Assembly: GCA_003215055.1 (NCBI GenBank)
Contig: QCKW01000002.1
Span: forward strand, 37,501-101,500
DNA length: 64,000 bases
Reading direction: 5' to 3'
Source of the DNA: Pelagibacteraceae bacterium AG-410-N23
Lineage (GTDB): Bacteria; Pseudomonadota; Alphaproteobacteria; Pelagibacterales; Pelagibacteraceae
In this document: positions 298 through 30,507 of the stretch, one piece after another
Layout: every line of letters begins with the position of its first letter
Numbering within the stretch: the stretch's first letter is position 1
Program-made: the position numbers and the translations under genes
The notes under the pieces: model-generated
What the model saw: the letters and a program-made list of their open reading frames with translations, nothing else
Database searches by the model: none
Told to the model about the DNA's origin: nothing

Positions 298-2016
298 TCA
301 CTTTTCTATTATAAAATTCTCAAGAATTAAAACATCAATATTATATTTTTTAAAACATTTTATTGCATCTATAGAGTCATTAACAATTGGTTGTCCTTTT
401 ATATTAAAAGAGGTGTTTAAAATAACAGGTACGCCAGATTTTTGATAAAAATTATTTAATAATTTATAAAAGAAAGGATTTGTTTGATTTGTTAGCGTTT
501 GTACCCTGCATGAATTATCTACATGAACAACTGCAGAAATTTTATTTCTATTTTTCATTTTTGCTTTGCAGGCGATCAACATATGTGGACTCTCTTGATT
601 CAAATCGAAATATTCTTCTTTTTTTTCATTAAGTACCATGGGTGCAAAAGGTCTAAAAAATTCTCTAAATTTAACATTTTTATTAAGATGATCTTTCATT
701 CTTTCAGGGTATGGCTTTGAGATTATACTTCTATTTCCAAGAGCTCTTGGGCCAAATTCAGCTGGACCCCTAAATACTCCAATAATTTTTCCTTCTAAAA
801 GTTTTTTTGAAATTTCGTTATGTAACAACTTATTGTTAAGTTTTTTGAATTTGATTTTTCTTTTAATTAAATTTTTTTTAATAATCCTTTCACTTTCTCT
901 TGTACCTGTAAAAAAGTTATTTATTCTTTTGGTTTTTAATTTTTTTCTTTTAAGCGTTGAAACTAGACATGAGCCATAAGAAATACCAGCATCTCCACTA
1001 GCAGGTTGTATAAAAATGTTCTTAAATATTTTTTCTTTTTTAATTCTTCCATTTAATGAGCAATTTAAAGCTACACCACCAGCTAAACATAAATTTTCAA
1101 TTTTATAAATTTTTTTCAAATACTTTAGCTGCTTACAAACTACATATTCCAATCTATCTTGTAGAGCCTTTGCAATATTCATATGGTGTTTTGTTATTTT
1201 AGATGAATATTTTTTTGGTTTACCAAAAATTTTGATAAATTCTTTGCTAACCCAAACATCTCTTTTTATATGGTAAGCAATCCATTTTTTATTTATTTCA
1301 TATTGAAGCGGGTTATTTTTATTTAGACAAATAATATCTTTAAATAGATCATAGTAAGTTTTATTAGTTCCTTTAATTTTAGCTTGAGAATTTCCATAAG
1401 GTGCAAGTCCCATTATTATGCCTTCATCGCAAAAAGGCTTCCAACCCAAATAAAAAGTTATAGCCGAATATAAGAGTCCCAAAGAATTTGGGTACAAATT
1501 TTTATAATTCAAAACCTTAATTTTACCTTTATTTCCTATTGCAAAAGCGCCACTTTCACTTTCACCTAAACCGTCATAGGAAACTACTAGTGCTTTTTGA
1601 AAACCACTCGGAAAATATGCACTTGCAAGATGGCAGAGATGATGGTTATTAAATTCAATTTTTTTTTTTATCTTTAATTTATTTTGAATTTGTTTTTCAA
1701 GATTGTGCCATGATTTAATTCTTTCAATATCATTTATAAAAAAAGATAATCTATCATAATTTTCTATAGATGGTTTTAAATATAAATCTCTAATGAGTAT
1801 TTGTGGATCAAAACCTGAAGAGATTACATCAATATCGTTTATACTTAATTTAGAAATTTTTAAACAATCCTTTATGGCTTCCAAAGGGAAATTTCTTGAA
1901 TGTTTTATTTTGTCATATCTTTCTTGTTCACAAGCTGCAATTAATTTTCCATCTATCGTAATACAAGCCGATGTATCATGTCCTTCTGAATTTAAACCTA
2001 AAACTTTGAGACTCAT
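298..2016 (-). CDS. Carbamoyltransferase (NodU/CmcH family)
   Basis: N-term GLNSEGHDTSACI, HHLCHLASAYFPSGF, CLAGGVALNCSLNGRI, FRGPAEFGPRALGNRSI motifs. Confidence 0.9.
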   Translation of the reverse strand: MSLKVLGLNSEGHDTSACITIDGKLIAACEQERYDKIKHSRNFPLEAIKDCLKISKLSINDIDVISSGFDPQILIRDLYLKPSIENYDRLSFFINDIERIKSWHNLEKQIQNKLKIKKKIEFNNHHLCHLASAYFPSGFQKALVVSYDGLGESESGAFAIGNKGKIKVLNYKNLYPNSLGLLYSAITFYLGWKPFCDEGIIMGLAPYGNSQAKIKGTNKTYYDLFKDIICLNKNNPLQYEINKKWIAYHIKRDVWVSKEFIKIFGKPKKYSSKITKHHMNIAKALQDRLEYVVCKQLKYLKKIYKIENLCLAGGVALNCSLNGRIKKEKIFKNIFIQPASGDAGISYGSCLVSTLKRKKLKTKRINNFFTGTRESERIIKKNLIKRKIKFKKLNNKLLHNEISKKLLEGKIIGVFRGPAEFGPRALGNRSIISKPYPERMKDHLNKNVKFREFFRPFAPMVLNEKKEEYFDLNQESPHMLIACKAKMKNRNKISAVVHVDNSCRVQTLTNQTNPFFYKLLNNFYQKSGVPVILNTSFNIKGQPIVNDSIDAIKCFKKYNIDVLILENFIIEK

Positions 2017-3062
2017 AATTTATCTTTCTTTATTGTTTTTTTATATAAATTTGAAATTAGATTAAGATTATGTTTCACTTTTTTATGACTGATTATTCTT
2101 GCTTGAATTTTTTGAATTTTTTTTTCATATTTTTTATTTTTATAAATTTTATTAAATATGTTTATAAGTTTTACTGTAAATTTTTCATCATTAAAATTAA
2201 TATAATTAATTGCATTGGTTTTTGAAATTATTTTAGCATTAATTTCTTGATGTTTGTATTGTGGGATGCATATTATTTTTTTTTTATTCAAAATTGCATC
2301 AAATAAACTTAAACCACCAGCAATGATTGCTATATTAGATTCTACCAGTCTTATCGGGTATTTTTCAGGATTAAAGTAATTTATTTTATGTTTTGATTTT
2401 AAAATATTTATTTCCGATTTATAGGAAAAAGGTAAATTAATAATAAGTTTTAGGTCAATATTTTCTAACAATTTTAATATTTTTTTAGCAATCTTTTTAC
2501 TGTCAAAGCCTCCAAAAAAAATAAATATGTTTTTATAATTAAAATTTTTTTTGTTTTTTTTTACTTTCTCATTATTTAATATTTGATATTTAAAACCTAC
2601 TTTACAACCATGAAATTTTTTTACATTATGCATCAGTGGATTCAGACTCAAATCAAACATTTTCCTGTGATTTGAAGAATCATCGATAATAATTTTTTTT
2701 TTATAATTTTTATTAATACTATTTATGAATTCTTTTTTTATATTACCAAGTCGATCGATAACCAATAAATTAGCACAAAACTTACCAATTATTTTAGTCT
2801 CTAATTTTGAATAATCTTTAATTTCATGGTCAACACTTTTAATCGTGAATTTATGACGTTTTAAAATTTCTAAGCTTTTTTTAAATTTTTTTTTCGTTTT
2901 TACTAAAAATAAAATGTCTTTGGATTTTAATCTAAATTTTTTTTTAAGAAAATAAGCTATTATTAATGACCTATATAAATGTCCAGAACCTATCTCAGGC
3001 AACTCAGCCGCATCACATCTAAAAACAATGCTAAATTTTAAAAAATTGTTGTACTTTTTCAC
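2013..3062 (-). CDS. PseG-like UDP-sugar hydrolase / glycosyltransferase-fold protein
   Basis: FRCDAAELPEIGSGHLYRSL resembles the PseG RxDxxxxIGxGHxxR motif; next to a DegT aminotransferase. Confidence 0.7.
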   Translation of the reverse strand: MKKYNNFLKFSIVFRCDAAELPEIGSGHLYRSLIIAYFLKKKFRLKSKDILFLVKTKKKFKKSLEILKRHKFTIKSVDHEIKDYSKLETKIIGKFCANLLVIDRLGNIKKEFINSINKNYKKKIIIDDSSNHRKMFDLSLNPLMHNVKKFHGCKVGFKYQILNNEKVKKNKKNFNYKNIFIFFGGFDSKKIAKKILKLLENIDLKLIINLPFSYKSEINILKSKHKINYFNPEKYPIRLVESNIAIIAGGLSLFDAILNKKKIICIPQYKHQEINAKIISKTNAINYINFNDEKFTVKLINIFNKIYKNKKYEKKIQKIQARIISHKKVKHNLNLISNLYKKTIKKDKL

Positions 3063-4200
3063 AAATAAAATTTAAATCTTTAATTTTTAAATCAGGATAC
3101 AATGGTAAGCTGACAGTATTATCGCCCAAATATTTTGAGTTTTTACAAGTTTTATCGTTCCAACCAAGTTTTTTTTTAAATATACTCATGTCTGTGACGG
3201 TTCGATAATTTACTCCACACCCAATATTATTTTTTTTTAAAAATAACATTAAATCATCTCGATTTTTTTTTGTTTTGTTTTTGTCGATTATCACTAAAAA
3301 AAGATGATATGCATGACGTATATTTTTATTAGTAAAATTTTGTGTTTTTATTGGTAAGTGAGATAGTTTTTTTTTGTATAAATCGAAAATTTTTTTTCTT
3401 TTTTTCCATGAACTTTCAAGCTTTCCCAATTGAATTAATCCCATAGCAGCGTTAATATCAATCATATTGTATTTCATTCCTATTTCAGTGACATCATAAT
3501 GTTCGAATTTTTTTTTGTTTTTTACACTTTCAGGCAAATATCTTTTCCAAGCATCCTTTGACAAGCCATGGAGTCTTGCAACTCTTATTTTTTGAGATAT
3601 TTTTTTATTATTACAGACAACCATTCCTCCCTCTGCAGTAGTTAAATTTTTTGTAGAATAGAAACTAAAGCAACCAGCATCTCCAAAATTACCAACATGT
3701 CTGTTATTGTATTTACTCTCAATAGCATGGGCACAATCCTCAATTAGTTTAAGCTTATATTTTTTTGTTATTTTTAATATTTTTTCCATATCACATGGCA
3801 ACCCTGCAAAATGAACAATTAAAATTGCTTTTGTTTTTTTAGTAATTTTTTTTTCTATTTCCCCTGGGTCAATATTAAAAGTATTAGGATCAATATCAGC
3901 TAAAACAGGCTTTGCTCCGGTAAGTATTATTGAGTTAATTGTAGAAGCAAAAGTCATTGGAGTTGTAATAACTTCATCATTGTAACGAATTCCACAATAA
4001 ATTAATGATAGATGAAGTGCGGCAGTACAAGAATTAACAGAAAGTGCATATTTAGATTTTTTATATTTCTTAAATTTTCTCTCAAATTCCTCAGTTATAG
4101 GGCCACTACCTATCCATTTGGATCTTATAATCTTTGAAACAAATTGAATTTCTTGATTTCCTATATTCGGTTTACCAAATGGGATATAATTTTTTCTCAT
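3031..4200 (-). CDS. DegT/DnrJ/EryC1/StrS (PseC-like) sugar aminotransferase
   Basis: FGKPNIGNQEI, SVNSCTAALHLSL, EDCAHAIESKYNNRHVGNFGDAGCFSFYSTKNLTTAEGGMVV (PLP lysine). Confidence 0.9.
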   Translation of the reverse strand: MRKNYIPFGKPNIGNQEIQFVSKIIRSKWIGSGPITEEFERKFKKYKKSKYALSVNSCTAALHLSLIYCGIRYNDEVITTPMTFASTINSIILTGAKPVLADIDPNTFNIDPGEIEKKITKKTKAILIVHFAGLPCDMEKILKITKKYKLKLIEDCAHAIESKYNNRHVGNFGDAGCFSFYSTKNLTTAEGGMVVCNNKKISQKIRVARLHGLSKDAWKRYLPESVKNKKKFEHYDVTEIGMKYNMIDINAAMGLIQLGKLESSWKKRKKIFDLYKKKLSHLPIKTQNFTNKNIRHAYHLFLVIIDKNKTKKNRDDLMLFLKKNNIGCGVNYRTVTDMSIFKKKLGWNDKTCKNSKYLGDNTVSLPLYPDLKIKDLNFICEKVQQFFKI

Positions 4201-4204
4201 CTAA

Positions 4205-4312
4205 AAGTGTTATATTTTTAAATATTTTTCACAAAATTTTGACTGTAAGGTTGCAGGACAGCTAGTGAATTTCACACAGATTTCCCACCATGCATTTCAG
4301 CAAAAACACAAT
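4205..4312 (-). promoter_or_regulatory. Cobalamin-riboswitch-like leader RNA upstream of the DegT aminotransferase
   Basis: Minus strand reads GGTGGGAAATCTGTGTGAAATTCACTAGCTGTCCTGCAACCTTACAGTC, close to the conserved core GGGAA...GGUGaaAaUCC...GCUGUCCCGCAACuGUAA; possible degenerate B12 box AGTCAAAATTTTG. Confidence 0.5.
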
Positions 4313-4430
4313 TGTCTATTTAAGGACTATTGTCAAGATATTTATAAACTATACTTTTAAGTTTAATTATTATAAAAAAAACTTGAAAATTATTTATTTT
4401 AAGAATTAACTTAAATTTTAACAAATAAAA

Positions 4431-6548
4431 ATGAGAAAATTAAAAATATTATTATGTGATCCACGCCACTCTACAATAGGATCACATGTGACAAGCATAC
4501 CTATCGGTATCGGTTATATAGCTTCATACATCAAAAAAAAAATAAAAAACATTAAAGTAGATATAATACTAGAAGTTGATCCAGATAAAATAATATCAAA
4601 TATTAAAACTTTTAATCCCGACATAGTTGCGAGTTCAAATTATGTTTGGAACAGCCAAATTTCAAATTTTATTTGCTCAGAAGCTAAAAAAAATAATTTA
4701 AATACCCTTTGTCTCTTAGGAGGACCTGAGTTTCCCGCAGGAACAGGTGCTAGACAAATAGAAAATAATTATAAAGACAAAACATACGATAAATGTTTTG
4801 AATTTATGTTAAATAGACCCTTTGTAGATTATTTTTCTTATACCGATGGTGAAGTCTCAATGATAGAAATTATAAATAAGTTCATTGAAAGTAACCTCTT
4901 GGTAACAGAAATGAAAAAAAAAGATGTACCTATAAAAGGCTGGGTAAATATATCTAAAGATAAAAAAAAGCTTCTTGTTGGAGAATATATACCTCGAGTT
5001 GGTCTCGATGGATCGGTTAAAGCCTCAGGGCGTGATGAGATACCATCACCATATACCACTGGTTTATTAGATAAATTTTTAGATGGAACTTTGATACCAG
5101 CATTTGAAACTGCAAGAGGATGTCCTTTCCTTTGCACATTTTGTGATCAAGGATTAGATATGAGTAAAATTACTGCGTTTAGTGTTAATAGACTAATGGA
5201 AGAATTTTGGTATGTTGGTAAAAAAATGTCTCAAATCGAAGATGGAACTAAAACAGTAGATATCTTCGATTCAAACTGGGGAATATTTGAGAAAGATGTT
5301 GAGCTTGCATATAAAATTCTGGAAGTAATGAATGAATATGATTGGCCTCAGTATATTCAATGTTTAACTCCTAAAAGTAACAGAGAAAATTTACTAAAGA
5401 TTAATGACAAACTAAAGAATAGAGTTCAAGTTGGATTATCAATGCAATCTATTAACCCAATCACTTTAACAGATATCAAAAGAAAAAATTGGACAATTAA
5501 TCAATATCTAGAATATGTAGAAGAAATTAGAAAAAGAGGAAAAAATGTAAGTTCAGAGTTAATTATTCCGTTACCGGAAGAAACAAAAGAGACCTTCTTT
5601 GAAGGTGTAAATTTTTTACTAGATAATAATGTTTCACCAAATGTTTACACGCTGATGATGCTTTGTGGTGCAGAATTAGGTAGAGATTTAGCGATAAAAA
5701 AAAATAATATGAAATCAAAATATAGAATTTTACCAAAATCATTTGGAAAATATAAAGAAAAAATTGTAGTAGAAACTGAAAGAATTTGTGTGGGCACCAA
5801 TGCAATGAGTTTTCAAGATTATTTAGAATGTAGAAATTATAGTTTTATTTTAAGACTTATATCTCATCAATCATTTCTTCCAATTTATAAAATCGCAAAG
5901 GAGTTTGATATTGGTTGGTATGAATTATCAAAAAAATTGACTGAATTAATACAAAAAGAGGAATTTGAAGGAAAATTGAAGGATATATTTAATGAATTTT
6001 GTAAAGAGTCATTAAATGAATTGTTTGATAGCGAAAAAGAAGCAATAGATTTTTATTCAGATGAAAAAAATTATAAATTATTAAAAAGTGGTGATATTGG
6101 TGATAACCTAATTGGAAAATATACCGCAAAGGCACTATTAGAGATTAATGAAATTGTTCCTACAATATTTAAATTAATGAACAGTGAATTTAACATAAAA
6201 GAAAATGAAAATTTCAAAAAGGTATCATTAGCATCAGAAAAATGGTTAACTAATATCTTTATGATTGATAAAATTTTTAATGATAATTTCAATCATGAGA
6301 CTAAATATAATTTAAAAATTGATTTTGATCTTCCTCAATGGCTAGAAAGGGAAAAACAGCCAATTATTAATTTTTTTAAAGATTCACATTACGAGTTATC
6401 CTATGATAAAAACAAATTAAAGTATTTGCGTAATGAACTTAGAATATTGTCAGCTTCTACAAAAGAAATCGCATTAGGTAAATTATTAATGCAGCAAACT
6501 GGTAGAGATTTTAGTTCTTTTGAAAAAGAATATAGTAAAATTAATTAA
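4431..6548 (+). CDS. B12-binding-domain radical SAM protein
   Basis: N-term LLCDPRHSTIGSHVTSIPIGIGYIASYI (B12-binding-like fold); ETARGCPFLCTFCDQG is CxxxCxxC. Confidence 0.8.
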   Translation: MRKLKILLCDPRHSTIGSHVTSIPIGIGYIASYIKKKIKNIKVDIILEVDPDKIISNIKTFNPDIVASSNYVWNSQISNFICSEAKKNNLNTLCLLGGPEFPAGTGARQIENNYKDKTYDKCFEFMLNRPFVDYFSYTDGEVSMIEIINKFIESNLLVTEMKKKDVPIKGWVNISKDKKKLLVGEYIPRVGLDGSVKASGRDEIPSPYTTGLLDKFLDGTLIPAFETARGCPFLCTFCDQGLDMSKITAFSVNRLMEEFWYVGKKMSQIEDGTKTVDIFDSNWGIFEKDVELAYKILEVMNEYDWPQYIQCLTPKSNRENLLKINDKLKNRVQVGLSMQSINPITLTDIKRKNWTINQYLEYVEEIRKRGKNVSSELIIPLPEETKETFFEGVNFLLDNNVSPNVYTLMMLCGAELGRDLAIKKNNMKSKYRILPKSFGKYKEKIVVETERICVGTNAMSFQDYLECRNYSFILRLISHQSFLPIYKIAKEFDIGWYELSKKLTELIQKEEFEGKLKDIFNEFCKESLNELFDSEKEAIDFYSDEKNYKLLKSGDIGDNLIGKYTAKALLEINEIVPTIFKLMNSEFNIKENENFKKVSLASEKWLTNIFMIDKIFNDNFNHETKYNLKIDFDLPQWLEREKQPIINFFKDSHYELSYDKNKLKYLRNELRILSASTKEIALGKLLMQQTGRDFSSFEKEYSKIN

Positions 6549-10058: not shown

Positions 10059-10253
10059 TCAAAAAATATTGATTAGTCTTAGTTACTCGTTAAAAATTAT
10101 GATCATTATCAACAGGTGTAGATATAGTATGTTTATCTTATAAACTCAATTAACAATAATTAAAGTAAAAAGGTATTTTTTTCTTTTTTTTATTATTTTC
10201 CGGCTTATTTTTATTATAAAAAGTTAAAATATATTATTAAATTTAATTAATTT

Positions 10254-12296
10254 ATGAAAAAAAAAATTACAGCTATAGTTCAGGCAAGAATTGGATCCTC
10301 AAGATTAAGGGGAAAAGTATTAAAAAAAATACTTAGAAAAGAGTCAATTATTCTTTTGCTTGAAAGGTTATCAAGAGCAAAACAAATAAGTAATATAGTA
10401 GTGGCAATTCCTAGAAATAAGGAAAATGATATTTTATATAAATTACTTAAAAAATATAAATATAATGTTTATCGAGGTAGTGAAAATGATGTTTTAAAAA
10501 GGTATTACGAATGTGCCAAAAAGTATAATGCTCAACATATTTTGAGAGTTACTGGTGATTGTCCTTTAGTTGACTCAAAATTGGTAGATGAAATTGCAAA
10601 TGTATATAAATTGAATAATTTTGATTATGTCTCTAATATCGAACAAAGAACTTATCCAGACGGAATGGATTTAGAATTTTTTAGTTTTAAAACTTTATCA
10701 AAAATCTATTCAAATGTTATTTCTAAAAATGATAAAGAACACGTCACAAAATATGTTTTAAGAACGAATATATTCAAAAAATATAATTATAAACTAAAAA
10801 ATGATGACTATTCTTTTTTAAGAATTACTCTGGATACAATTGATGATTTCCATTTAATTAAAAAGATATTTAAAAATTTTATAAATAATTCTTTTACCTT
10901 AAAAGATATAATTAATTTTTATAAAAAAAATAATAAAATATTTTTAAAAAACAAAAATAATTCAATCCAAAATGAAACTAGAAGTTTAATTGCAGGACAA
11001 AAACTTTGGTTAAGAGCAAAAAAATCAATTTCTGGAGGCAACATGCTTTTTTCTAAGAGGCCTGACTCTTTCTTGCCAAATAAATGGCCAAGTTATTTTA
11101 ATAAGGCTAAAGGATGCAATATTTATGATTTAGAGGGAAATAAATTTAATGATTTTAGCATAATGGGTATTGGCACTAATATTCTGGGTTATTCCAATAA
11201 ACTTGTAGATAAAGCTGTTTTAAAAAAGTTGTCTGATGGGAACATGTCCACATTAAATTGTCCAGAAGAGGTCGAGTTAGCAGAAAAATTGATACATATT
11301 CATCCATGGGCCGATCAAGTTAGATTTGCGAGATCAGGAGGAGAAGCAAATGCGATAGCAATTAGATTGGCTAGAGCATATTCTAAAAAAAGACAAAAAA
11401 TTGCATTTTGTGGTTATCATGGATGGCACGATTGGTATCTAGCTGCAAATTTACAAAGTAAAAAAAATTTAAATGAACATTTGTTGCCAGGTCTTAAAGC
11501 AGGAGGGGTCAATAAAGAATTAAAAAAAACTGTATTTCCATTTAGATATAATGATTTTAATGGTTTAAAAAAAATTATAGATAAAAATAAAGATATAGGC
11601 ATTATTAAAATGGAAGTAATAAGAAATGAAAAACCAAAAAATAATTTTTTAAAAAAAGTACGGAAACTCTCTTCTGATAAAAATATAGTTCTAATCTTTG
11701 ATGAATGTACTACTGGCTTTAGACAAAATTTTGGTGGTATACACAAACTTTTTAATGTTGAACCTGATATGATGATGTTAGGAAAAGCTTTAGGAAATGG
11801 ATATGCCATTACTGCTGTTTTAGGTAAAAAAAATATAATGGAAAGTATTAAAGATACATTTATTAGCAGTACTTTTTGGACTGAAAGAATTGGTCCCACG
11901 GCCGCATTAAAAACTTTAGAGGTTATGGAAAAATATAAGACCTGGAATTACATTACTTCACTTGGCAAATATGTAAAATATAATTGGAAAAAATTAGCAA
12001 AAAAACACAAGATTGATATTAAAGTTAATGGAATTGATGCTTTATGTTCATTTATTTTTTTAAGCTCAAATCATCAAGCTTATAAGACATTTATTACTCA
12101 AGAAATGTTGAAGCATAAAATATTAGCTACAACTACAATATATATTTCAATATCACATTCAAAACAAAAACTTAAAACTTATTTTTTAATACTAGATAGA
12201 TTATTTAAAATAATATCTAAATGTGAAAGAGGTGATGACATCTTCAGATATTTAGAAACAGATATTGCTGAGAGCAACTTTGCTAGATTAAATTAA
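10254..12296 (+). CDS. Fusion: SpsF-type cytidylyltransferase domain + glutamate-1-semialdehyde aminomutase-like class III aminotransferase domain
   Basis: N-term IVQARIGSSRLRGKVL...RVTGDCPLVDS; C-term YDLEGNKFNDFSIMGIG, ARSGGEANAIAIRLARA, FCGYHGWHDWY, FDECTTGFR, MMLGKALGNGYAITAVLG (PLP Lys). Confidence 0.88.
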   Translation: MKKKITAIVQARIGSSRLRGKVLKKILRKESIILLLERLSRAKQISNIVVAIPRNKENDILYKLLKKYKYNVYRGSENDVLKRYYECAKKYNAQHILRVTGDCPLVDSKLVDEIANVYKLNNFDYVSNIEQRTYPDGMDLEFFSFKTLSKIYSNVISKNDKEHVTKYVLRTNIFKKYNYKLKNDDYSFLRITLDTIDDFHLIKKIFKNFINNSFTLKDIINFYKKNNKIFLKNKNNSIQNETRSLIAGQKLWLRAKKSISGGNMLFSKRPDSFLPNKWPSYFNKAKGCNIYDLEGNKFNDFSIMGIGTNILGYSNKLVDKAVLKKLSDGNMSTLNCPEEVELAEKLIHIHPWADQVRFARSGGEANAIAIRLARAYSKKRQKIAFCGYHGWHDWYLAANLQSKKNLNEHLLPGLKAGGVNKELKKTVFPFRYNDFNGLKKIIDKNKDIGIIKMEVIRNEKPKNNFLKKVRKLSSDKNIVLIFDECTTGFRQNFGGIHKLFNVEPDMMMLGKALGNGYAITAVLGKKNIMESIKDTFISSTFWTERIGPTAALKTLEVMEKYKTWNYITSLGKYVKYNWKKLAKKHKIDIKVNGIDALCSFIFLSSNHQAYKTFITQEMLKHKILATTTIYISISHSKQKLKTYFLILDRLFKIISKCERGDDIFRYLETDIAESNFARLN

Positions 12297-15534: not shown

Positions 15535-17385
15535 TCAATTTTTGAGTATTTGTGAAACCCATAATTCTGAAATTAATATCTGAAATAACAGATAGCTATT
15601 GAAATGTTGATCATATTTTAAGAAATTATTATAATAATTTATAATAGATTTCTTGCTAAAAATGCCTTGAGAATTAAATGAACTTGAATTTATTAAATCT
15701 AAGAAGATATTTTTAAGTGGACCTTTTAACCATTTAGATTGTGGATCAGCGATAGTTCTTTTATTTAAATAAAGAATTTTCTTATCAACATATTTTCTAA
15801 ATGGATATTTCATGATTATTCTTTGTTGACCTAATAAAAGTTTATGTTTTGATTGAATTTGTAAAGACTCTTCAACAACTTTGTGATCTAAAAATGGAAC
15901 TCTTGTTTCTATAGAATTATACATTGATGCTCTATCAGCATACTTAAGTGATCTAGGCAATTTTAAAAAAAATAAGTCAGCGTATTGGGAATTTCTTAGA
16001 TGACTTTTAAATGGTTTTAAAATTTTTAATTTTGAATCTAAATTTAGAAACTCTTTATTAAATAAAGCATTATTCTTATATTCACTACCATCAATAGTAG
16101 CCCCACCAGGATGCCTCATATAAGAAAAAGCACCCTTAATAAATTGATTATTGGTAATTGTTTCGTTTTTTATTTGGTCTAAATATCTGAAAAATTTATT
16201 TTTATTTTTTTTACATCTTTTTTCTTTTTGAAGGTCTAAATACCAAGGAATTATATGATAGCTATAACCAGCACCAATTTCATCTCCTCCAGATCCATCA
16301 AGAACAACTTTACAGTAATTTTTATAAGTATCATAAAGAAAATGTTGAGATAAAACTCTTAAAGAGGAGAAGGGTTCAAATTCTCTTTTTAAAACTTTTA
16401 ACAAATAATCTTCAATTTTACTTTCTTTTAAAATCGATGAATAATTATTTAAATTTGTGCTTTTTGAAATTAGTTTAGCATAATCCAATTCACTATATTT
16501 TTTATCTTCAAAATCGAAAGTAAATGAATCATATTTTTTTTTATTATAGTTACTAATTGCAGCTAGCACAGCAGAATCCACTCCCCCAGATAAGTGAATT
16601 CCAGCTCTTACATCGAACTGATTATGATCTTTGAATGAGTTCTGAAGTTTTGTTTTAAAATTTTTTACTTCATTATGGAAAGTATCTTTTTTATCCTCAT
16701 CGATAAAATTTTCGATATGGTAATATTTTTTCTCAACAATATTTCCATTTGAAAATTCAATAAAATGTGATGCTTTAACTTGATGAATATTTTCAAACCA
16801 TGTTTGATCATTTGAATTTACTAATCCTTGTGTAAAATATTTATGAGCTTCATTGATATTAATTTTTTTTTTATAATTTCCAGTCTTTACTAAAGGATTA
16901 AGCTCTGAACAAAAATAAATCTTTTTTAAATTTTTTTCATATCTAAAATACAAGGGTTTTATTCCAAATCTATCTCTAATAAGAAAAACTTTATTTAAGT
17001 TTTCATCTATTATACATATTGAAAACATACCTTTAATTTTATCTAAAAATTTTATTCCAAATTTTTCATATAGATGAATTAATACCTCTCCATCCCCATT
17101 AGACTTAAAATGAACATTCTTAAAGTAAGTTGTTTTCAGGTCTTTGTAGTTATAAATTTCACCGTTATATATTATTTGTATCTTTTTGTTTTTTGAAAAA
17201 AACGGCTGATTTGATTTTGAAGTTAGATCAATAATCTTTAGTCTGACAAAGCCAAATATCCCTATATCATTTTGAAAAGTTGTTCTTTGATCTGGTCCTC
17301 GGTGAATAATCTCATCCACCATATTTTCAATATCTTTTTTGTCGTTATCTTGATTAAATGGAACTATTCCAGCTATGCCACACAT
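15535..17385 (-). CDS. asnB: Asparagine synthase, glutamine-hydrolysing (AsnB family)
   Basis: MCGIAGIVPF (Cys2 nucleophile), HRGPDQRT, YNGEIYNY, HLSGGVDSAVLAAIS, LDGSGGDEIGAGY. Confidence 0.92.
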   Translation of the reverse strand: MCGIAGIVPFNQDNDKKDIENMVDEIIHRGPDQRTTFQNDIGIFGFVRLKIIDLTSKSNQPFFSKNKKIQIIYNGEIYNYKDLKTTYFKNVHFKSNGDGEVLIHLYEKFGIKFLDKIKGMFSICIIDENLNKVFLIRDRFGIKPLYFRYEKNLKKIYFCSELNPLVKTGNYKKKININEAHKYFTQGLVNSNDQTWFENIHQVKASHFIEFSNGNIVEKKYYHIENFIDEDKKDTFHNEVKNFKTKLQNSFKDHNQFDVRAGIHLSGGVDSAVLAAISNYNKKKYDSFTFDFEDKKYSELDYAKLISKSTNLNNYSSILKESKIEDYLLKVLKREFEPFSSLRVLSQHFLYDTYKNYCKVVLDGSGGDEIGAGYSYHIIPWYLDLQKEKRCKKNKNKFFRYLDQIKNETITNNQFIKGAFSYMRHPGGATIDGSEYKNNALFNKEFLNLDSKLKILKPFKSHLRNSQYADLFFLKLPRSLKYADRASMYNSIETRVPFLDHKVVEESLQIQSKHKLLLGQQRIIMKYPFRKYVDKKILYLNKRTIADPQSKWLKGPLKNIFLDLINSSSFNSQGIFSKKSIINYYNNFLKYDQHFNSYLLFQILISELWVSQILKN

Positions 17386-18319: not shown

Positions 18320-19345
18320 ATGGAATTTGTAACTCTTAGAGAAGCTGAGCTTTTTGCAAAAAAAAAAATAAAAGATAAAACCTTTCAATGGCTTCAATCT
18401 GGTGCTGAAGATAATTACACATTGGATAAAAATTTTCTTGATTTGAGGAAAATAAAGATAAAGCCCAAACATCTCAATAAAGTGGGAAATTTAGATTTAT
18501 CTAAGAATTTTTTTGGAAAAAAAATTTCATCACCAGTTCTTCTCGCGCCAATGGGCCATCAAACTCAATTTCATAAAAATGGAGAAATTGAGACCGCCTT
18601 AGGTGTTGAGAAAGCAAAATCTATAGCTTTTTTTAGTACTCAAGGAAGAATTTCATTAAATGATATAAGAAAAAAAAATAAATCAACAAACTTAGGATGG
18701 ACTATTTTTCCATTTGGAGATGAAGATTGGATATTGAAAGAGATTAAATCAGCTGAAAAAAATAAATGCATTGCTTTGATTATTTGTATTGATGCTAATG
18801 TTAGGTCCTGGAGATACAATGACAGAGAAAGTAGATATGATGCAAGAAAATTTGGAAGAAGAACAAATCCTCTTCCACCAAATCCAAAAAAAGCATTGAG
18901 TTATGATTGGAAACTTATCAATTTTATAAAAAAAAATACTAAATTACCTATTATTTTAAAGGGCATTTTGACAAAGGAAGATGCAATAAAATGTATAAAA
19001 AAAAAAATTGATGCTGTTTGGATTTCAAATCATGGTGGGAGGATGTTTAATTCAGGAATTTCTGGAATTGATGCAATAAGAAATTTCGGTCCTTTATTAA
19101 AAAAATCAAAATTGAAAATAATAATTGATGGAGGCATAAGAAAAGGATCAGACATTATTAAGTATATGTGTCTAGGTGCAGATTTTGTTGCTGTAGGACG
19201 TCCAATTATTCATGGTCTAGTTTGCAATAATAGAAAAGGAGTTGAAAAAGTTTTTGAAATTTTATCCGATGAATTAAAAACTTCAATGATCAATGGCGGT
19301 TTTAGTAGTTATAAAGATTTAAAATCAAATAGATTATCATTTTAA
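18320..19345 (+). CDS. FMN-dependent alpha-hydroxy-acid dehydrogenase family protein
   Basis: LQSGAEDNYTL, SPVLLAPMGHQ, PIILKGILTKEDA, WISNHGGRMFNSG, IIIDGGIRKGSDIIKYMCLGADFVAVGRP. Confidence 0.88.
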   Translation: MEFVTLREAELFAKKKIKDKTFQWLQSGAEDNYTLDKNFLDLRKIKIKPKHLNKVGNLDLSKNFFGKKISSPVLLAPMGHQTQFHKNGEIETALGVEKAKSIAFFSTQGRISLNDIRKKNKSTNLGWTIFPFGDEDWILKEIKSAEKNKCIALIICIDANVRSWRYNDRESRYDARKFGRRTNPLPPNPKKALSYDWKLINFIKKNTKLPIILKGILTKEDAIKCIKKKIDAVWISNHGGRMFNSGISGIDAIRNFGPLLKKSKLKIIIDGGIRKGSDIIKYMCLGADFVAVGRPIIHGLVCNNRKGVEKVFEILSDELKTSMINGGFSSYKDLKSNRLSF

Positions 19346-20073
19346 TGAAAAAAAAATATAAAGTCATTTGTATTATACCTGCGAGAGGTGGGTCTAAAGG
19401 TATAAAATTAAAAAACCTACAAAAAGTAAATAAAAAACCATTAATTTATTATCCGATTAAAGCAGCTTTAAAAAGTGGGGTTTGTGACAAAGTTTGTGTC
19501 TCCACAGATTCTGAATTAATTGCAAAAGTATCAAAATATTATGGAGCTGAAGTTCCATTACTTAGAGAAAAAAAACACGCGAAGGATTATACAACAACTG
19601 AAGAGACTCTAAAAAATTCACTCCAACAGTTTGAAAATTATTATAAGATGAAATTTGATATTTGTGTTTTTTTAACATGTACAAATATATTTAGAAAAGT
19701 AAGCTGGATAAAAACATGTGTAAATTTTTTAAAAAATAATAAAAAATATGAAAGTGCATTTTCAGTCCATAAAATTTACAAACATTTTTGGCAAATTGAT
19801 AAAGGAAAAATGAGTAAAGTATCTAAATGGATGGAAAATTATACTTCAAGACAAATTGCTCCTAAATTATATAGGGAAGATACAGGACTAGCGTGTGCAT
19901 CAAGAGCTTTTTTGTGGAGAAAAGGTAAAAGAATTGGAAAAAAAGTAAAAATTATAGTTAATGAAGATTCATTTACAGGAATTGATATACATGATCATAA
20001 AGATTTGTATCTTGCAGATGCAGCAATGAAATATTTAATTAAGAATAAAAAAATTAAAGATATGATTTCATGA
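19345..20073 (+). CDS. Acylneuraminate-type CMP-sugar synthetase (cytidylyltransferase)
   Basis: CIIPARGGSKGIKLKNLQKVNKKPLIYYPI; TDSELIAKVSKYYGAEVP; TGIDIHDHKDLYLAD. Confidence 0.88.
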   Translation: MKKKYKVICIIPARGGSKGIKLKNLQKVNKKPLIYYPIKAALKSGVCDKVCVSTDSELIAKVSKYYGAEVPLLREKKHAKDYTTTEETLKNSLQQFENYYKMKFDICVFLTCTNIFRKVSWIKTCVNFLKNNKKYESAFSVHKIYKHFWQIDKGKMSKVSKWMENYTSRQIAPKLYREDTGLACASRAFLWRKGKRIGKKVKIIVNEDSFTGIDIHDHKDLYLADAAMKYLIKNKKIKDMIS

Positions 20074-20912
20074 TAAAAAATTTTGCAGACCTTGGCATAG
20101 GAATATTTGCCTATAATCGTCCATCACATCTTAGAAGAACATTAATTAGCTTAGAAAATAATAATATTAGACAAGCAACTATATTTTTAGACGGACCAAA
20201 AAATCATAACGATAAAGTTATTCAAGAGGAAATTTTATTTATGATTAGAAACAATCCATTTATAAAACTAAATCTTATAAAAAATAAAAAAAATATGGGT
20301 CTAGCAAAATCAATTTACAAAGGAGTGAATATTTTAGTTAAAAAGCATAAAAATACCATTATTATAGAGGACGATTGTGTTCCAAGAGCAGAATTCTTCG
20401 ATTTCATTTTAAAGATTACAAAGTCAAAATTATATAAAAAAAATCTAAATCCTATTTGTGGATATCAGTTTCCAGAAATACAAAGATTAAACAAAAAAAA
20501 TTTTTTTCCGATTTACTTAAACTATTTTATTCCATGGGGTTGGTGTATTAGCTCAAAGTATTGGGAACAATATAAAAAATTTTTATCAAACAAAACAAAG
20601 TTAAAATTTGAGGATAAAATTGTGAATAAAATAAATAAATTAGTTAAAAACAAAAATAAAAAAATTTGGTCAAAGAACTTTATTATATTTAATCTTGTTA
20701 ATAAAAAAAAAATTATATTTCCAAGTTTATCGTTAATTAAAAATATTGGTTTTGATGGTAGTGGTATAAATTCTAAAGTGACTAATAAGCTAAATACAGA
20801 ATATATAAAGCCAAAAAATAAACTTAAGGATATTGATTATATCAAAAATAATACTAATTTAGAAAGGGAACAAATAAAAGTTTTAGGCAACAGGGCTAAA
20901 TATTTTTTTTAA
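20070..20912 (+). CDS. Glycosyltransferase (GT2-like)
   Basis: IGIFAYNRPSHLRRTLISL, NMGLAKSIYKGVNIL, TIIIEDDCVPRAEFFDF, PWGWCISSKYWEQ. Confidence 0.75.
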   Translation: MIKNFADLGIGIFAYNRPSHLRRTLISLENNNIRQATIFLDGPKNHNDKVIQEEILFMIRNNPFIKLNLIKNKKNMGLAKSIYKGVNILVKKHKNTIIIEDDCVPRAEFFDFILKITKSKLYKKNLNPICGYQFPEIQRLNKKNFFPIYLNYFIPWGWCISSKYWEQYKKFLSNKTKLKFEDKIVNKINKLVKNKNKKIWSKNFIIFNLVNKKKIIFPSLSLIKNIGFDGSGINSKVTNKLNTEYIKPKNKLKDIDYIKNNTNLEREQIKVLGNRAKYFF

Positions 20913-21937
20913 TGAATGTTTTAATTATTGGATTTGGAACTGCTGGCAGATATTATCTAAAAATTTTAAAGTCATTTAAAAAGATAAAAAAAATTTTTAT
21001 TGTTGATGATTTAAAATTACCTAAATCAAATAAATATACACAAATACAATTTAACTCAAAAGAATTGAAAAAAAATTCTATAAAATATGCAATAATTTCA
21101 ACGCCATCTGGCTCGCATTATGATTATGCTTTAAAGTTGGTTAATAATTCAATTAATACTTTAATTGAAAAACCTTTTGTATTGAATTTATATGAAGCAA
21201 AGAATTTGATAAAAAAAAGTAAATCCAAAAAAATTAAGTGTTGGGTGGTTTTTCAGAATAGATATAATTTAGCATTAAAAAAATTGGTACAAGTAGTAAA
21301 TAAAAAAATATTAGGAAAAATCTTTCTGATTGATTGTAGTTTAATTTGGAAAAGAGATAAAAAATATTATAGTTCTCCCTGGAGAGGGAAATATAGATCA
21401 GATGGTGGAGTTCTTTCTAATCAAGCTATTCATTTATTAGATGCTGTAATACATGTTTTTGGAAAAGTTAAAAAATTTAGTTCAATTTTAAGTTATAATA
21501 AAAAGAAACTAGAGGCCGAAGATCTAGCTTTATTAAATCTAGTTCATGATAATAATACTCTTACAAGTTTTAAAGCCACAACTAGAGCTGACTCAAATTA
21601 TAGAAGTGCAATGGACGTTATAGGCGAAAAAGGAAGAGTTTTAGTTAAAGGGATTAGTTTAAACACTTTCCATTATTTAAAAGGAAATGATATAAAAAAT
21701 GATAAAAAAAATTCTGAAGAATTTGGTATTGGAGCAGGAACGATTGGAGCAATGGGAAATGGTCACTTAAAGATATTAAATGAATTTTTTTCTAAAAAAA
21801 TAAAAAACTCAAGCCAAAAATTAGAAATAAGAAACAATATGCATGTTTTAAGTTTATTGCACTCAATTTATAATTCAGAAAAATTGAAAATTTTAAATAA
21901 AGTTTTAGAAAAAGAAAGTGTTTTAGGGAAAAAATGA
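20912..21937 (+). CDS. Gfo/Idh/MocA family oxidoreductase
   Basis: MNVLIIGFGTAGRYYLKIL, NTLIEKPFVLNLYEAKNL, SDGGVLSNQAIHLLDAV. Confidence 0.85.
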   Translation: MNVLIIGFGTAGRYYLKILKSFKKIKKIFIVDDLKLPKSNKYTQIQFNSKELKKNSIKYAIISTPSGSHYDYALKLVNNSINTLIEKPFVLNLYEAKNLIKKSKSKKIKCWVVFQNRYNLALKKLVQVVNKKILGKIFLIDCSLIWKRDKKYYSSPWRGKYRSDGGVLSNQAIHLLDAVIHVFGKVKKFSSILSYNKKKLEAEDLALLNLVHDNNTLTSFKATTRADSNYRSAMDVIGEKGRVLVKGISLNTFHYLKGNDIKNDKKNSEEFGIGAGTIGAMGNGHLKILNEFFSKKIKNSSQKLEIRNNMHVLSLLHSIYNSEKLKILNKVLEKESVLGKK

Positions 21938-22830
21938 AAAATGTAAAAAAATTATCTAACAAAGAACCAACCAAAGATATTTCTAGAGATGATTTAAAAT
22001 CTAAAATTCCTTTATCAACTTCAAAAAAGAAAAGAATAGTAAAAATTTCAAAAAATTTATCTTTTGGAGGAGATAAATTACCAATAATAGCAGGACCAAA
22101 TGGCGTTGAAAGTAAAAAGCTTATGATCGATGTAGCAAAACAGCTTAAAAAAAATAATATTCACATTATAAGAGGACATGCATATAAACCTTTAACTTTT
22201 CCGTATAGATCAAAACAATATTCAGAAAGTAGAGATAAAGGAATGGATATTATGGATGAAATAAAAAAAGATTTTGGTCTATTAGTAGTGACGGAAGTTA
22301 CTGAATTAAGATTTCTAGAAAGAATAAATAAGACAGCAGATATTTTACAGATTGGATCCAGAAATATGCAAAACTTGGAACTTATAAAAAAAATTGCAAG
22401 TACAAATAAACCAATTATTCTTAAAAGACATTTTGGTTCAAGTATTAGAGATTTGCTAGGTGCAGCAGAACATATTTTGCTAGAGGGAAATTCAAACTTA
22501 ATTTTATGTGAAAGAGGAATGTCTATACCCCATACTCACAGATCTACATCAAGATTTGCCTTGGATATTCAAGCTATACCTGCGCTGAAAGAAATTTCGT
22601 GCTTACCCGTGATATCGGATCCTTCTCATGCATCATTTTGGGCACCATGGGTGCCAAGTTTGACCTATGCATCTATAGCGGCAGGATGTGACGGTTTAAT
22701 CATAGAAATTCATCCAAATCCAAAAAAGTCTCATGTAGATCCTCTTCAGCCATTAAATTTTAATCAATTTAAACAATTAATCACAAAGAGTAAAAAAATT
22801 TCAATTTTATTTAATAAAAAAATAATTTGA
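21934..22830 (+). CDS. Divergent DAHP-synthase-like (class I DAHPS/KDO8PS fold) enzyme
   Basis: PIIAGPNGVESKKLMIDVA, RGHAYKPLTFPYRS, DILQIGSRNMQNLELI, KPIILKRHFG, LILCERGM, VISDPSHASF, GLIIEIHPNP. Confidence 0.87.
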   Translation: MKNVKKLSNKEPTKDISRDDLKSKIPLSTSKKKRIVKISKNLSFGGDKLPIIAGPNGVESKKLMIDVAKQLKKNNIHIIRGHAYKPLTFPYRSKQYSESRDKGMDIMDEIKKDFGLLVVTEVTELRFLERINKTADILQIGSRNMQNLELIKKIASTNKPIILKRHFGSSIRDLLGAAEHILLEGNSNLILCERGMSIPHTHRSTSRFALDIQAIPALKEISCLPVISDPSHASFWAPWVPSLTYASIAAGCDGLIIEIHPNPKKSHVDPLQPLNFNQFKQLITKSKKISILFNKKII

Positions 22831-23606
22831 TGTTTTGTACAATAATTGGACATCCATTATTAAAGCCAAGATCTGTGAAGTTATGGGGAAACTTTTTTAA
22901 AAAAAAGAGGTTAAATATTAAAATGTTTTCAAAAGAAATAAAACCTGAAAATTTTGAAAGAGATTTTTCAAAACTTTTATCTAATAAAAATTTTTTAGCT
23001 TCCGCGGTAACAATGCCTTACAAAAAAAAAGTAATATCAAAGATAATTATCGAGGATAAGATTTCTAAATATTCAAAATCGATAAATTTTATAATAAAAA
23101 AAAATAAAAAAATTTTTGGTTATAATACAGATGTGTATGGTGCTTTAAAAACAATTAAAAATTTTAAAAAAAATAATATTTGTATTTATGGTTTTGGGGG
23201 ATCTGGAGAAGCTATAGCAAGAGTAATTTTAAAGATTTATAAAAAAACTAAAATAAAGATTATATCTTCAAAGAAAAAACCTTCAGATTTACCTAGTAAT
23301 AGAATAAAGTTTTTTGATAGAAAAAAAAAAATTAATCTATCAAATATAGACTTATTTATAAACTGTTCTCCATTAGGCTCAGACTTGAGAAAAGCATATT
23401 TAAATAAAAGTCCACTAAATTTAGATGAGTTAGAAAATGCAAATCAACAAATTAAAATTTTTGATATTGTATATAAACCAAAAAAAAACTTATTAAACAA
23501 GCTATGTAAGAAAAAAAAAATTTTTTACATAAATGGTATTTTTATGAATACTGTACAAGCTCAGATAGCTTTAGATAAAGTTTTTAAATATTATAAAAAA
23601 TTATAA
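22827..23606 (+). CDS. Shikimate-dehydrogenase-like (AroE-family) oxidoreductase
   Basis: IIGHPLLKPRSVKLWGNFF, AVTMPYKKKV, FGYNTDVYGALKTI, CIYGFGGSGEAIARVIL, NCSPLGSD. Confidence 0.85.
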   Translation: MMFCTIIGHPLLKPRSVKLWGNFFKKKRLNIKMFSKEIKPENFERDFSKLLSNKNFLASAVTMPYKKKVISKIIIEDKISKYSKSINFIIKKNKKIFGYNTDVYGALKTIKNFKKNNICIYGFGGSGEAIARVILKIYKKTKIKIISSKKKPSDLPSNRIKFFDRKKKINLSNIDLFINCSPLGSDLRKAYLNKSPLNLDELENANQQIKIFDIVYKPKKNLLNKLCKKKKIFYINGIFMNTVQAQIALDKVFKYYKKL

Positions 23607-28405: not shown

Positions 28406-29455
28406 ATGATTTTAGATAATAGTTCAAAAAACAAATTACTTAACTTTTTAATCAAAAAAGAGATAAAATTTGAAAAAAATTTTGATTTAAAAAAAAAATC
28501 TTGGTTAAAAGCTGGTGGTATATTTGAGTATTTTATTGAACCCTCAACATATGAGCAAATAATTGATTTGGTGACGTTTTTTAGAGAAAATAATTTAGAT
28601 TATTATGTTGTTGGAAATTTATCTAATATCATTTTTAGAGATGGGAATATAGAGACACCAATTATAAATATAAAAAATTACAATGAAATAATCGTAGAAG
28701 ATGAGCCCAATAAATTTAAGGTCAACGCGTGCTGTGGAATTTCCATTTTTAAATTTGTAAGTTTTATTTCTCAAAAACTCAAAATCTCCGGTTTAGAAGG
28801 GTTAGTTGGTATACCTGGATCTTTAGGAGGTGGAATATATATGAATGCTTCATCGTACGATTCCTATATTTCAGAATATTTAAAAGAAATTAAGTATGTA
28901 AATTTTGATAGTGAAGAGATAATTATAAAAAAAGAAGATGCTAAACTGGAATGGAGATCCTCGATTTTTCATAATAAGAAAAACATAATAATATTAAATG
29001 CTGTATTTGAATTTCCAAAGAATAATTTAGCTGATACTGAAATAATCAATAGAAAAATTGAAAAAGTAAAAAAACATAGAATTACATTTCAAGAAAAAAA
29101 ATTTCCCAACTTAGGAAGTCTATTCGCAACAAAAGATTTATATAAAGATATATCATCTTCGAGCATTTTATTTAAGATATTATATTTTTTTAACATCATA
29201 ATTACAAAATTAATTAGAAAGTTTTTTAGTGAACATCACTTAATTAAATTTAGAAAATTTTTAGTAAGTATTTATTCTTATTTAATTGGAATAAATAAAA
29301 AAAGTTCATTTAGATTATCTGATAGAACTATAAATTGTATAATAAATAATAATTCAAAGAATGCAGATGAGGCAATTAAGATAATAAGAAATTATCAAAA
29401 AAAAATAAAATATTCACAAAGGTTAGAAAATATAATTTTAGAAGATATCTTATAA
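28406..29455 (+). CDS. MurB-like FAD-binding oxidoreductase with a hydrophobic insertion
   Basis: SWLKAGGIFEYFIEPSTYEQI, VVGNLSNIIFRDG, GLEGLVGIPGSLGGGIYMNASSYDSYIS, LEWRSSIF, PNLGSLF. Confidence 0.85.
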   Translation: MILDNSSKNKLLNFLIKKEIKFEKNFDLKKKSWLKAGGIFEYFIEPSTYEQIIDLVTFFRENNLDYYVVGNLSNIIFRDGNIETPIINIKNYNEIIVEDEPNKFKVNACCGISIFKFVSFISQKLKISGLEGLVGIPGSLGGGIYMNASSYDSYISEYLKEIKYVNFDSEEIIIKKEDAKLEWRSSIFHNKKNIIILNAVFEFPKNNLADTEIINRKIEKVKKHRITFQEKKFPNLGSLFATKDLYKDISSSSILFKILYFFNIIITKLIRKFFSEHHLIKFRKFLVSIYSYLIGINKKSSFRLSDRTINCIINNNSKNADEAIKIIRNYQKKIKYSQRLENIILEDIL

Positions 29456-30507
29456 TGAAAATAAATATAATAACCTTTCATTGGAGTAACAATCTTGGTG
29501 CTCTTGTGCAATCATTATGTTTAAAAAAATTTTTAGAGGAAAATTTTGAAAATTCTATTGAATTTAATTACTATTTACCAGAGCGTCTAATTAAAAGAGA
29601 GAGAAATAGTCAATTAAATTTAGAAAATTCCTCTTTTTTAACTCAAGTAATTCAAAAAAAAATTAATCTTTATTTTTGGAAAAAAAAGATTGCGAGACTT
29701 GTTGTCTCTAAAAAAAAACCAGTTTCTTTTAACAAAGACATATATATTTATGGAAGCGATGAAATATGGAACTATACAAATCCTTTTTTTGGATTTGATC
29801 CATATTTTTTTGGCGAATTAAATAATCAAAAAAAAATAGCATATGGATGTAGTATTGGAAATGCAGAGAATAAAATAGAATCAAATATGATATTAGAAAA
29901 AATTAAAAAAAATCTAGATACTTTTAAAGCTATTTCTGTAAGAGATCAAAATTCATTTAATTTTGTAGAAAATCTCTTAAGTTTGAAACCAAACATTGTT
30001 ATTGACCCATGTTTTTTATCAGACCCAGAAATATTTTTACCAGATAGATCAGTATATAAAGAGAAATTTAAAAAGAAGGATTATATACTTATTTATGGTG
30101 ATTATTTCGGCAAAAATGAAATTCAAGATATTTTGAATTTTTCCAAAAGTCAAAATCTTGAAATTATATCAGTTGGCTCCATTAATCGATGGGTAGATAA
30201 AAATATTATAAAAGTAAATCCGACAGATCTTATTTTTTTTATTCAAAACTCTAAATTTGTAATAACATCCATGTTTCATGGGATAATGTTATCATATAAA
30301 TTTAAAAAACAATTTTGGTATAGCGAAGATCCTTACAGAAAAAATAAGTTAGAATACTTTTTAGAAAAGCTCGATCTAAAAAAACAAAAAATAAACAACT
30401 TAGGTGTAAATCAGATTGAATACAAAAATAAAGAGGCTGAGTTTAATTCATGGAAAAAAAGTTCCTCTGATTTTCTGATAAATAATATAAATAAATTATC
30501 GAAATAA
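29455..30507 (+). CDS. Polysaccharide pyruvyltransferase family protein
   Basis: IITFHWSNNLGALVQSLCLKKFL, IYGSDEIWN, ISVRDQNSFNFV, VIDPCFL, VITSMFHGIMLSYKF. Confidence 0.85.
   Translation: MKINIITFHWSNNLGALVQSLCLKKFLEENFENSIEFNYYLPERLIKRERNSQLNLENSSFLTQVIQKKINLYFWKKKIARLVVSKKKPVSFNKDIYIYGSDEIWNYTNPFFGFDPYFFGELNNQKKIAYGCSIGNAENKIESNMILEKIKKNLDTFKAISVRDQNSFNFVENLLSLKPNIVIDPCFLSDPEIFLPDRSVYKEKFKKKDYILIYGDYFGKNEIQDILNFSKSQNLEIISVGSINRWVDKNIIKVNPTDLIFFIQNSKFVITSMFHGIMLSYKFKKQFWYSEDPYRKNKLEYFLEKLDLKKQKINNLGVNQIEYKNKEAEFNSWKKSSSDFLINNINKLSK

Follow-up and report, generated by a model that had tools for sequence, protein, structure and literature searches.

Within a 64,000-nucleotide stretch of a Pelagibacteraceae (SAR11) draft genome (923 kb, 79.8% complete), which we call the window and whose positions we use below, lies a six-gene operon that we interpret as an accessory surface-glycan module. 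We assign a probability of about 0.7 to the reading that its product is a cytidine monophosphate (CMP)-activated 3-deoxy-2-ulosonic-type acid, made with neofunctionalised relatives of DAHP synthase (DAHPS) and shikimate dehydrogenase (AroE). The original prediction, made from the DNA alone, had proposed an undescribed CMP-activated 3-deoxy-ulosonic or related surface acid built by repurposed aromatic-pathway paralogues, and our analysis supports it, with the product class suggested by the enzyme families involved. The six open reading frames (ORFs) and the overlaps that it described are all borne out:

18320..19345, + strand: flavin mononucleotide (FMN)-dependent alpha-hydroxyacid dehydrogenase-like protein, 341 aa, a variable member of the module (FMN_dh, PF01070, 3.8e-81)
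19345..20073, + strand: NeuA/PseF-type cytidylyltransferase, 242 aa, predicted CMP-ulosonate synthetase (CTP_transf_3, PF02348, 5.7e-27)
20070..20912, + strand: GT-A fold glycosyltransferase, 280 aa, EDD motif (assigned from predicted structure; no Pfam match)
20912..21937, + strand: Gfo/Idh/MocA NAD(P)-dependent oxidoreductase, 341 aa (PF01408, PF22725, PF02894; Gfo/Idh C-terminal domain, 1.6e-18)
21934..22830, + strand: DAHP-synthase-like protein, predicted phosphoenolpyruvate (PEP) aldolase, 298 aa; the metal Cys is replaced by Asn56 and the erythrose 4-phosphate (E4P) Arg by Leu87 (DAHP_synth_1, PF00793, 3.5e-51)
22827..23606, + strand: AroE-like dehydrogenase with altered carboxylate clamp, 259 aa from TTG 22827 or 258 aa from ATG 22830 (Shikimate_dh_N, 1.1e-07; TIGR00507, alignment and tree)

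Consecutive ORFs overlap by one to four bases at their stop/start junctions (..TTTA/ATG at 19345, ATGA at 20070, ..TTTA/ATG at 20912, ATGA at 21934, and TTGATG at 22827, where the last gene has its two possible starts), which suggests that the six genes are translationally coupled. None of the six proteins reaches a curated NCBIfam equivalog cut-off.

The best evidence that these genes serve one pathway is their joint retention within genomes despite rearrangement. Our deep scans covered the Pseudomonadota, and the scan of genome contigs returned 14 further loci, on contigs from single cells and metagenome-assembled genomes (MAGs), encoding a DAHPS-like protein 62-81% identical to that of the window; the closest relatives are from Pelagibacteraceae single cells and MAGs. 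The set is more than a chance grouping, since it recurs on these 14 independent contigs and in about ten further genomes, in two classes in total, with its order shuffled; conservation of the neighbourhood in other genomes is thus established. The AroE-like gene is last in the window and in L011, L012, L014, L016 and L017, lies ahead of the FMN gene in L007, L008 and L018, and is on the opposite strand in L010. The FMN gene is present in 11 of the 15 close-clade loci, and three of the remaining loci are cut by contig ends. Contig ends do not account for the absence of the FMN gene from L012, for the lack of a visible AroE-like gene in the stretch surrounding L009, or for the missing or replaced glycosyltransferase of L007, L009, L010 and L014.

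A broader clade, at approximately 49-56% identity, includes other SAR11 bacteria, unrelated Alphaproteobacteria and one member (G505) in another class of the phylum. Its core comprises the cytidylyltransferase, Gfo/Idh, DAHPS-like and AroE-like genes, and in the first locus set Gfo/Idh is present in 22 of 24 loci. In one genome (G122) the DAHPS-like gene is on one contig and the AroE-like, glycosyltransferase and cytidylyltransferase genes are on another. Both G122 and G505 have thus retained the full set of genes although it is divided between two places in the genome, which speaks for a common pathway. The glycosyltransferase of the broader clade is often replaced by a GT2-cytidylyltransferase fusion; such fusions of GT2 with a second cytidylyltransferase-like domain occur at L066 6102-7472, L027 7050-8480 and L026 6784-8181 and in L067, L068 and L069, and in L119 the two parts are separate adjacent genes. 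Viral contigs contained no relative at close-relative sensitivity, and viral carriage was rejected on this ground. Plasmid relatives were also discarded: the nearest are ordinary DAHP synthases, and the one from Thermovirga sits in a full aromatic operon.

The same association is seen among 118 genomes of the family. The DAHPS-like gene is present in five of them, with a sixth match (28%) set aside as it groups with KdsA in the tree, and the cassette-type AroE paralogue is present in six, which include all five (hypergeometric 3.4e-8, uncorrected for shared ancestry). The sixth AroE-paralogue genome, G483, carries the cytidylyltransferase, Gfo/Idh and AroE-like genes up to a contig end. Cassette-type cytidylyltransferases (E<=1e-50) are confined to those six genomes and to G478, where the gene is an orphan; a relative of the cytidylyltransferase is present in 11 of 11 genomes with the DAHPS-like gene, even if unlinked.

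To place the DAHPS-like protein we built a tree of 42 proteins, including 25 from cassettes, and compared motifs with 15 true DAHP synthases. The 25 cassette proteins group in a single clade (100/100, branch length 1.18) that lies among the type I-beta DAHP synthases, away from KdsA, and the predicted model of the window protein matches DAHPS structures (TMq ~0.8). In type I-beta enzymes the metal is bound by a Cys/His/Glu/Asp set, E4P by the Arg and Thr of a KPRT motif, and PEP by R60, K65, R120, K141 and R171; up to 2019 every reported DAHP synthase was a metalloenzyme (PMC6362186). The cassette proteins have AGPN in 25/25 cases at the metal site, where true DAHP synthases have GPC in 15/15, so that the metal Cys becomes Asn while the His, Glu and Asp ligands are kept. 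At the E4P site they have KPL[T/S]F (25/25) against KPRT (15/15), with loss of the Arg, and all 25 carry HTH[R/K] in an inserted loop. In Kdo8P synthases Asn instead of the metal Cys is the mark of the non-metal form (PMC3052366). As the PEP-binding residues are kept (R80, K85, R143, K164 and R194 of the window protein, equivalent to R60, K65, R120, K141 and R171 of Aro1A), the cassette proteins should remain PEP aldolases; judging from these residues, they probably use an aldehyde other than E4P and do not need a metal. Identity as KdsA was rejected by the tree, by the absence of a KANRSS-type motif and by the identity of ~25% to KdsA.

This invariant loss of the E4P arginine and the metal cysteine speaks against function as a DAHP synthase, and bears on the explanation that the cassette enzymes are spare copies for aromatic biosynthesis, or copies gained laterally, that happen to lie in a variable island. 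Homology, the predicted DAHPS fold and the names that automatic pipelines would give all favour such an origin. The window DAHPS-like protein, however, scores 252.3 bits against TIGR01361 (type I-beta DAHP synthase), below the cut-off of 267.75, although the G122 member reaches 289.8 bits, so that score alone does not separate the groups; the AroE-like protein likewise falls below its equivalog cut-off. The aromatic pathway is also served elsewhere. In the window's own draft PF00793 matches the cassette gene alone, and a type II DAHP synthase (690 bits) lies on another contig of that draft. An AroE match, taken as the housekeeping copy, is present in 45 of 45 near-complete family genomes, and each of the ten other cassette genomes encodes an AroE besides that of the cassette; in G380 and G107 this additional AroE scores 179-186 bits, slightly below the cut-off. 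In the own draft a second aroE was not found at 79.8% completeness, which is a point for the backup explanation; the two weak extra matches there are SDR-type dehydrogenases. Separate housekeeping enzymes are therefore seen in the own genome for DAHPS and in relatives for AroE, and the notion that the cassette AroE is the only aroE in the genome was rejected given the incomplete draft and the 45 relatives. With no other aromatic gene in the cassettes, and with metal and E4P residues lost invariably across two classes, we consider a backup role very improbable.

The AroE-like protein scores 98.6 bits against TIGR00507 (cut-off 200.2), and cassette copies from other genomes score 127-171 bits. 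In a tree of 23 cassette proteins and 22 other AroE-family proteins (housekeeping AroE, YdiB and other paralogues) a 100/100 branch splits the two sets; each of the two aromatic paralogues thus forms its own fully supported clade. Lys65, Asn86, Asp102, Tyr215 and Gln244 (E. coli numbering), of which Lys65 and Asp102 are catalytic, are conserved in 23/23 cassette proteins. In contrast, Ser14 of the carboxylate clamp is replaced by Pro or Ala in all 22 cassette proteins that cover this region, with Ser16 kept and residue 15 an Arg. A copy in L069 (about 10120-10866, G458) is without the N-terminal serine-clamp region and has one TAA inside the match; it is possibly decaying or misread.

Retention of the residues that hold the shikimate ring hydroxyls would suit a carbocyclic route, in which the DAHPS-like and AroE-like enzymes stand at either end of a shikimate- or quinate-like pathway of aminoshikimate style, housekeeping AroB and AroD supply the middle, and the product decorates a glycan. 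The two genes are usually close and co-occur, and aminoshikimate clusters likewise pair DAHPS and AroE paralogues. However, dehydroquinate synthase and dehydratase are missing from every cassette: queries with E. coli AroB and AroD gave no match at E<=1e-4 in any cassette locus, genome-wide aroB paralogues not having been searched, which extends to every locus what had been noted for the window's operon. Such a route is also at odds with the loss of the E4P arginine and metal cysteine in 25/25 proteins, and leaves the strict company of a CMP-acid synthetase without reason. We regard it as unlikely.

In the cytidylyltransferase CYTIDYLYLTRANSFERASE the nucleotide/CTP-binding motif ARGGSKG..KN is intact; the protein scores 124.2 bits against the PseF equivalog TIGR03584 (cut-off 205.7). 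Of 12 cassette genomes, 11 carry NeuB genes, and at L007, L008, L009, L010, L017 and L026 NeuB lies close to the cassette. The cytidylyltransferase, Gfo/Idh and glycosyltransferase genes might then serve an ordinary nonulosonic acid from a NeuB encoded elsewhere, with the DAHPS-AroE pair as a separate unit sharing the island; in G505 this pair does stand alone, approximately 63 kb from a group of cytidylyltransferase, FMN and Gfo/Idh genes in which FMN adjoins the cytidylyltransferase. Yet NeuB often lies beside a different cytidylyltransferase (L135, L137, L140, L008), and we think NeuB an unlikely partner of the cassette enzyme. The motifs differ as well, with xFR and DIH/DIN in cassette copies against S/T-P-x-R (SPLR-like) and DID/NID in four NeuB-linked copies, which fits a different substrate. 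No NeuB was found in the own draft, and the cytidylyltransferase accompanies the DAHPS-like gene in 11 of 11 genomes. On balance a NeuB-based origin of the acid seems improbable, rather more so than the carbocyclic route. Cassette-type cytidylyltransferases fused to an O-methyltransferase-like region occur at L066 7476-9248 (by Pfam) and L067 9996-11753 (by sequence), and the orphan gene of G478 (L134 7315-9051), for which no DAHPS or AroE partner was found, is of similar length.

The third gene product, without a Pfam match, has an invariant E100-D101-D102 motif, and its AlphaFold model (pLDDT 88) matches in Foldseek the GT-A glycosyltransferases POMGNT1/GnT-I (E 2.7e-11, TMq ~0.55), in agreement with its earlier label as a glycosyltransferase. 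The FMN enzyme keeps the SNHGGR motif and the FMN-site Lys in the compared copies; its role in the module is a matter for speculation.

Taken together, these data favour the ulosonic-acid pathway, in which the DAHPS-like enzyme would condense PEP with an aldehyde other than E4P to a 3-deoxy-2-keto acid, probably without a metal, the Gfo/Idh and AroE-like enzymes would tune the oxidation state or stereochemistry of the acid, the NeuA/PseF-type enzyme would couple it to CMP, and the GT-A enzyme would act as the glycosyltransferase of the module. The recurrent neighbours of the cassette loci included no visible phosphatase; together with the loss of the phosphate-site Arg this would be consistent with an aldehyde lacking phosphate, as in the NeuB reaction, which is a guess. 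Equally speculative is the AroE-like step. The 3-deoxy-2-ulosonate pyranose shares the outline of quinate and shikimate (carboxylate carbon, CH2, CHOH, CHOH), with ulosonate C2-C3-C4-C5 set against quinate C1-C2-C3-C4, and the C3 chemistry of AroE would then correspond to ulosonate C4; this is a chemical argument and not a result. We hold tentatively, at somewhat less than even odds, the fuller proposal that abundant marine bacteria make an undescribed class of CMP-activated acidic sugars by means of a metal-independent DAHPS branch acting on a non-E4P, perhaps unphosphorylated, aldehyde and of an AroE-type dehydrogenase that treats the sugar acid as a quinate look-alike.

Several points weigh against the ulosonic-acid pathway. 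The sugar-acid product and the reaction of the AroE-like enzyme are predictions; the DAHPS-AroE pair and the cytidylyltransferase are far apart in G505; and the orphan cytidylyltransferase of G478 has no detected DAHPS or AroE relative. The frequency of NeuB in cassette genomes means that not every cytidylyltransferase is tied to DAHPS with certainty, and the glycosyltransferase fold is closest to UDP-GlcNAc enzymes, not to known CMP-sugar transferases.

Like the Kdo pathway (KdsD-KdsA-KdsC-KdsB), the module would condense PEP with an aldose through a DAHPS-superfamily synthase, which shares with E. coli KdsA an Asn at the metal-Cys position, and then activate the product with CMP; unlike it, the synthase lies within DAHPS I-beta, there is no recurrent KdsC-type phosphatase, and AroE-like, Gfo/Idh and FMN enzymes are added. 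With the nonulosonic acid pathways (NeuB/PseI/LegI and NeuA/PseF/LegF) it shares the cytidylyltransferase family and the setting in surface-glycan islands, but its synthase is DAHPS-like and its cytidylyltransferase motifs are distinct. The two aromatic paralogues descend directly from type I-beta DAHPS and shikimate dehydrogenase, whose folds they share along with the PEP site of the former and the catalytic Lys/Asp of the latter, whereas the cassette enzymes have lost the E4P Arg, metal Cys and clamp Ser and are accessory, in a glycan context, with housekeeping copies elsewhere. Aminoshikimate (rifamycin-type) clusters also took DAHPS and AroE paralogues from aromatic metabolism, but the cassette has a CMP-acid synthetase and a glycosyltransferase instead of a dehydroquinate-synthase homologue. 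We found no paper that links CMP-sugar genes with DAHP synthase in the making of a glycan, which is weak evidence as it covers open-access literature only; the papers found on heptulosaric acid concern plants and have no link to the cassette.

The AT-rich surroundings of the cassette hold AsnB, ABC-transporter, radical-SAM, methyltransferase-like and polysaccharide pyruvyltransferase genes, and we interpret them as a surface-polysaccharide island. AsnB-type glutamine amidotransferase genes lie near the cassette in 11 loci, including window 15535-17385 (- strand), and might, as a guess, amidate a carboxylate. Window 10254-12296 (+ strand) encodes a 680-aa fusion of a CTP_transf_3 domain with a class III aminotransferase, with whole-protein relatives in L016 and L066. 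A FAD_binding_4 protein, MurB-like by eye (28406-29455, + strand), is immediately 5' of the polysaccharide pyruvyltransferase gene (29455-30507) in the glycan island. Near the DAHPS-like gene of G122, L028 4584-5354 is a transaldolase/fructose-6-phosphate-aldolase family gene, a possible source of an unusual aldose. X-rich translations at L133 (about 1429-5106) and L138 (3130-3717) reflect runs of N in the genome records, from masking or assembly gaps.

CMP-activated 2-keto-3-deoxy acids (Kdo, sialic, pseudaminic and legionaminic acids) are key bacterial surface sugars, and to our knowledge the synthases for such acids are of the KdsA or NeuB type. SAR11-type bacteria rank with the most numerous marine bacteria. 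Automatic pipelines would name these genes aroF and aroE, and the G122 member even passes the DAHP-synthase cut-off, so that misannotation should be expected. If the proposed pathway is correct, a third, DAHPS-derived synthase branch would add a sugar class, and SAR11-type bacteria would offer a clear example of glycan synthesis by enzymes recruited from primary metabolism.

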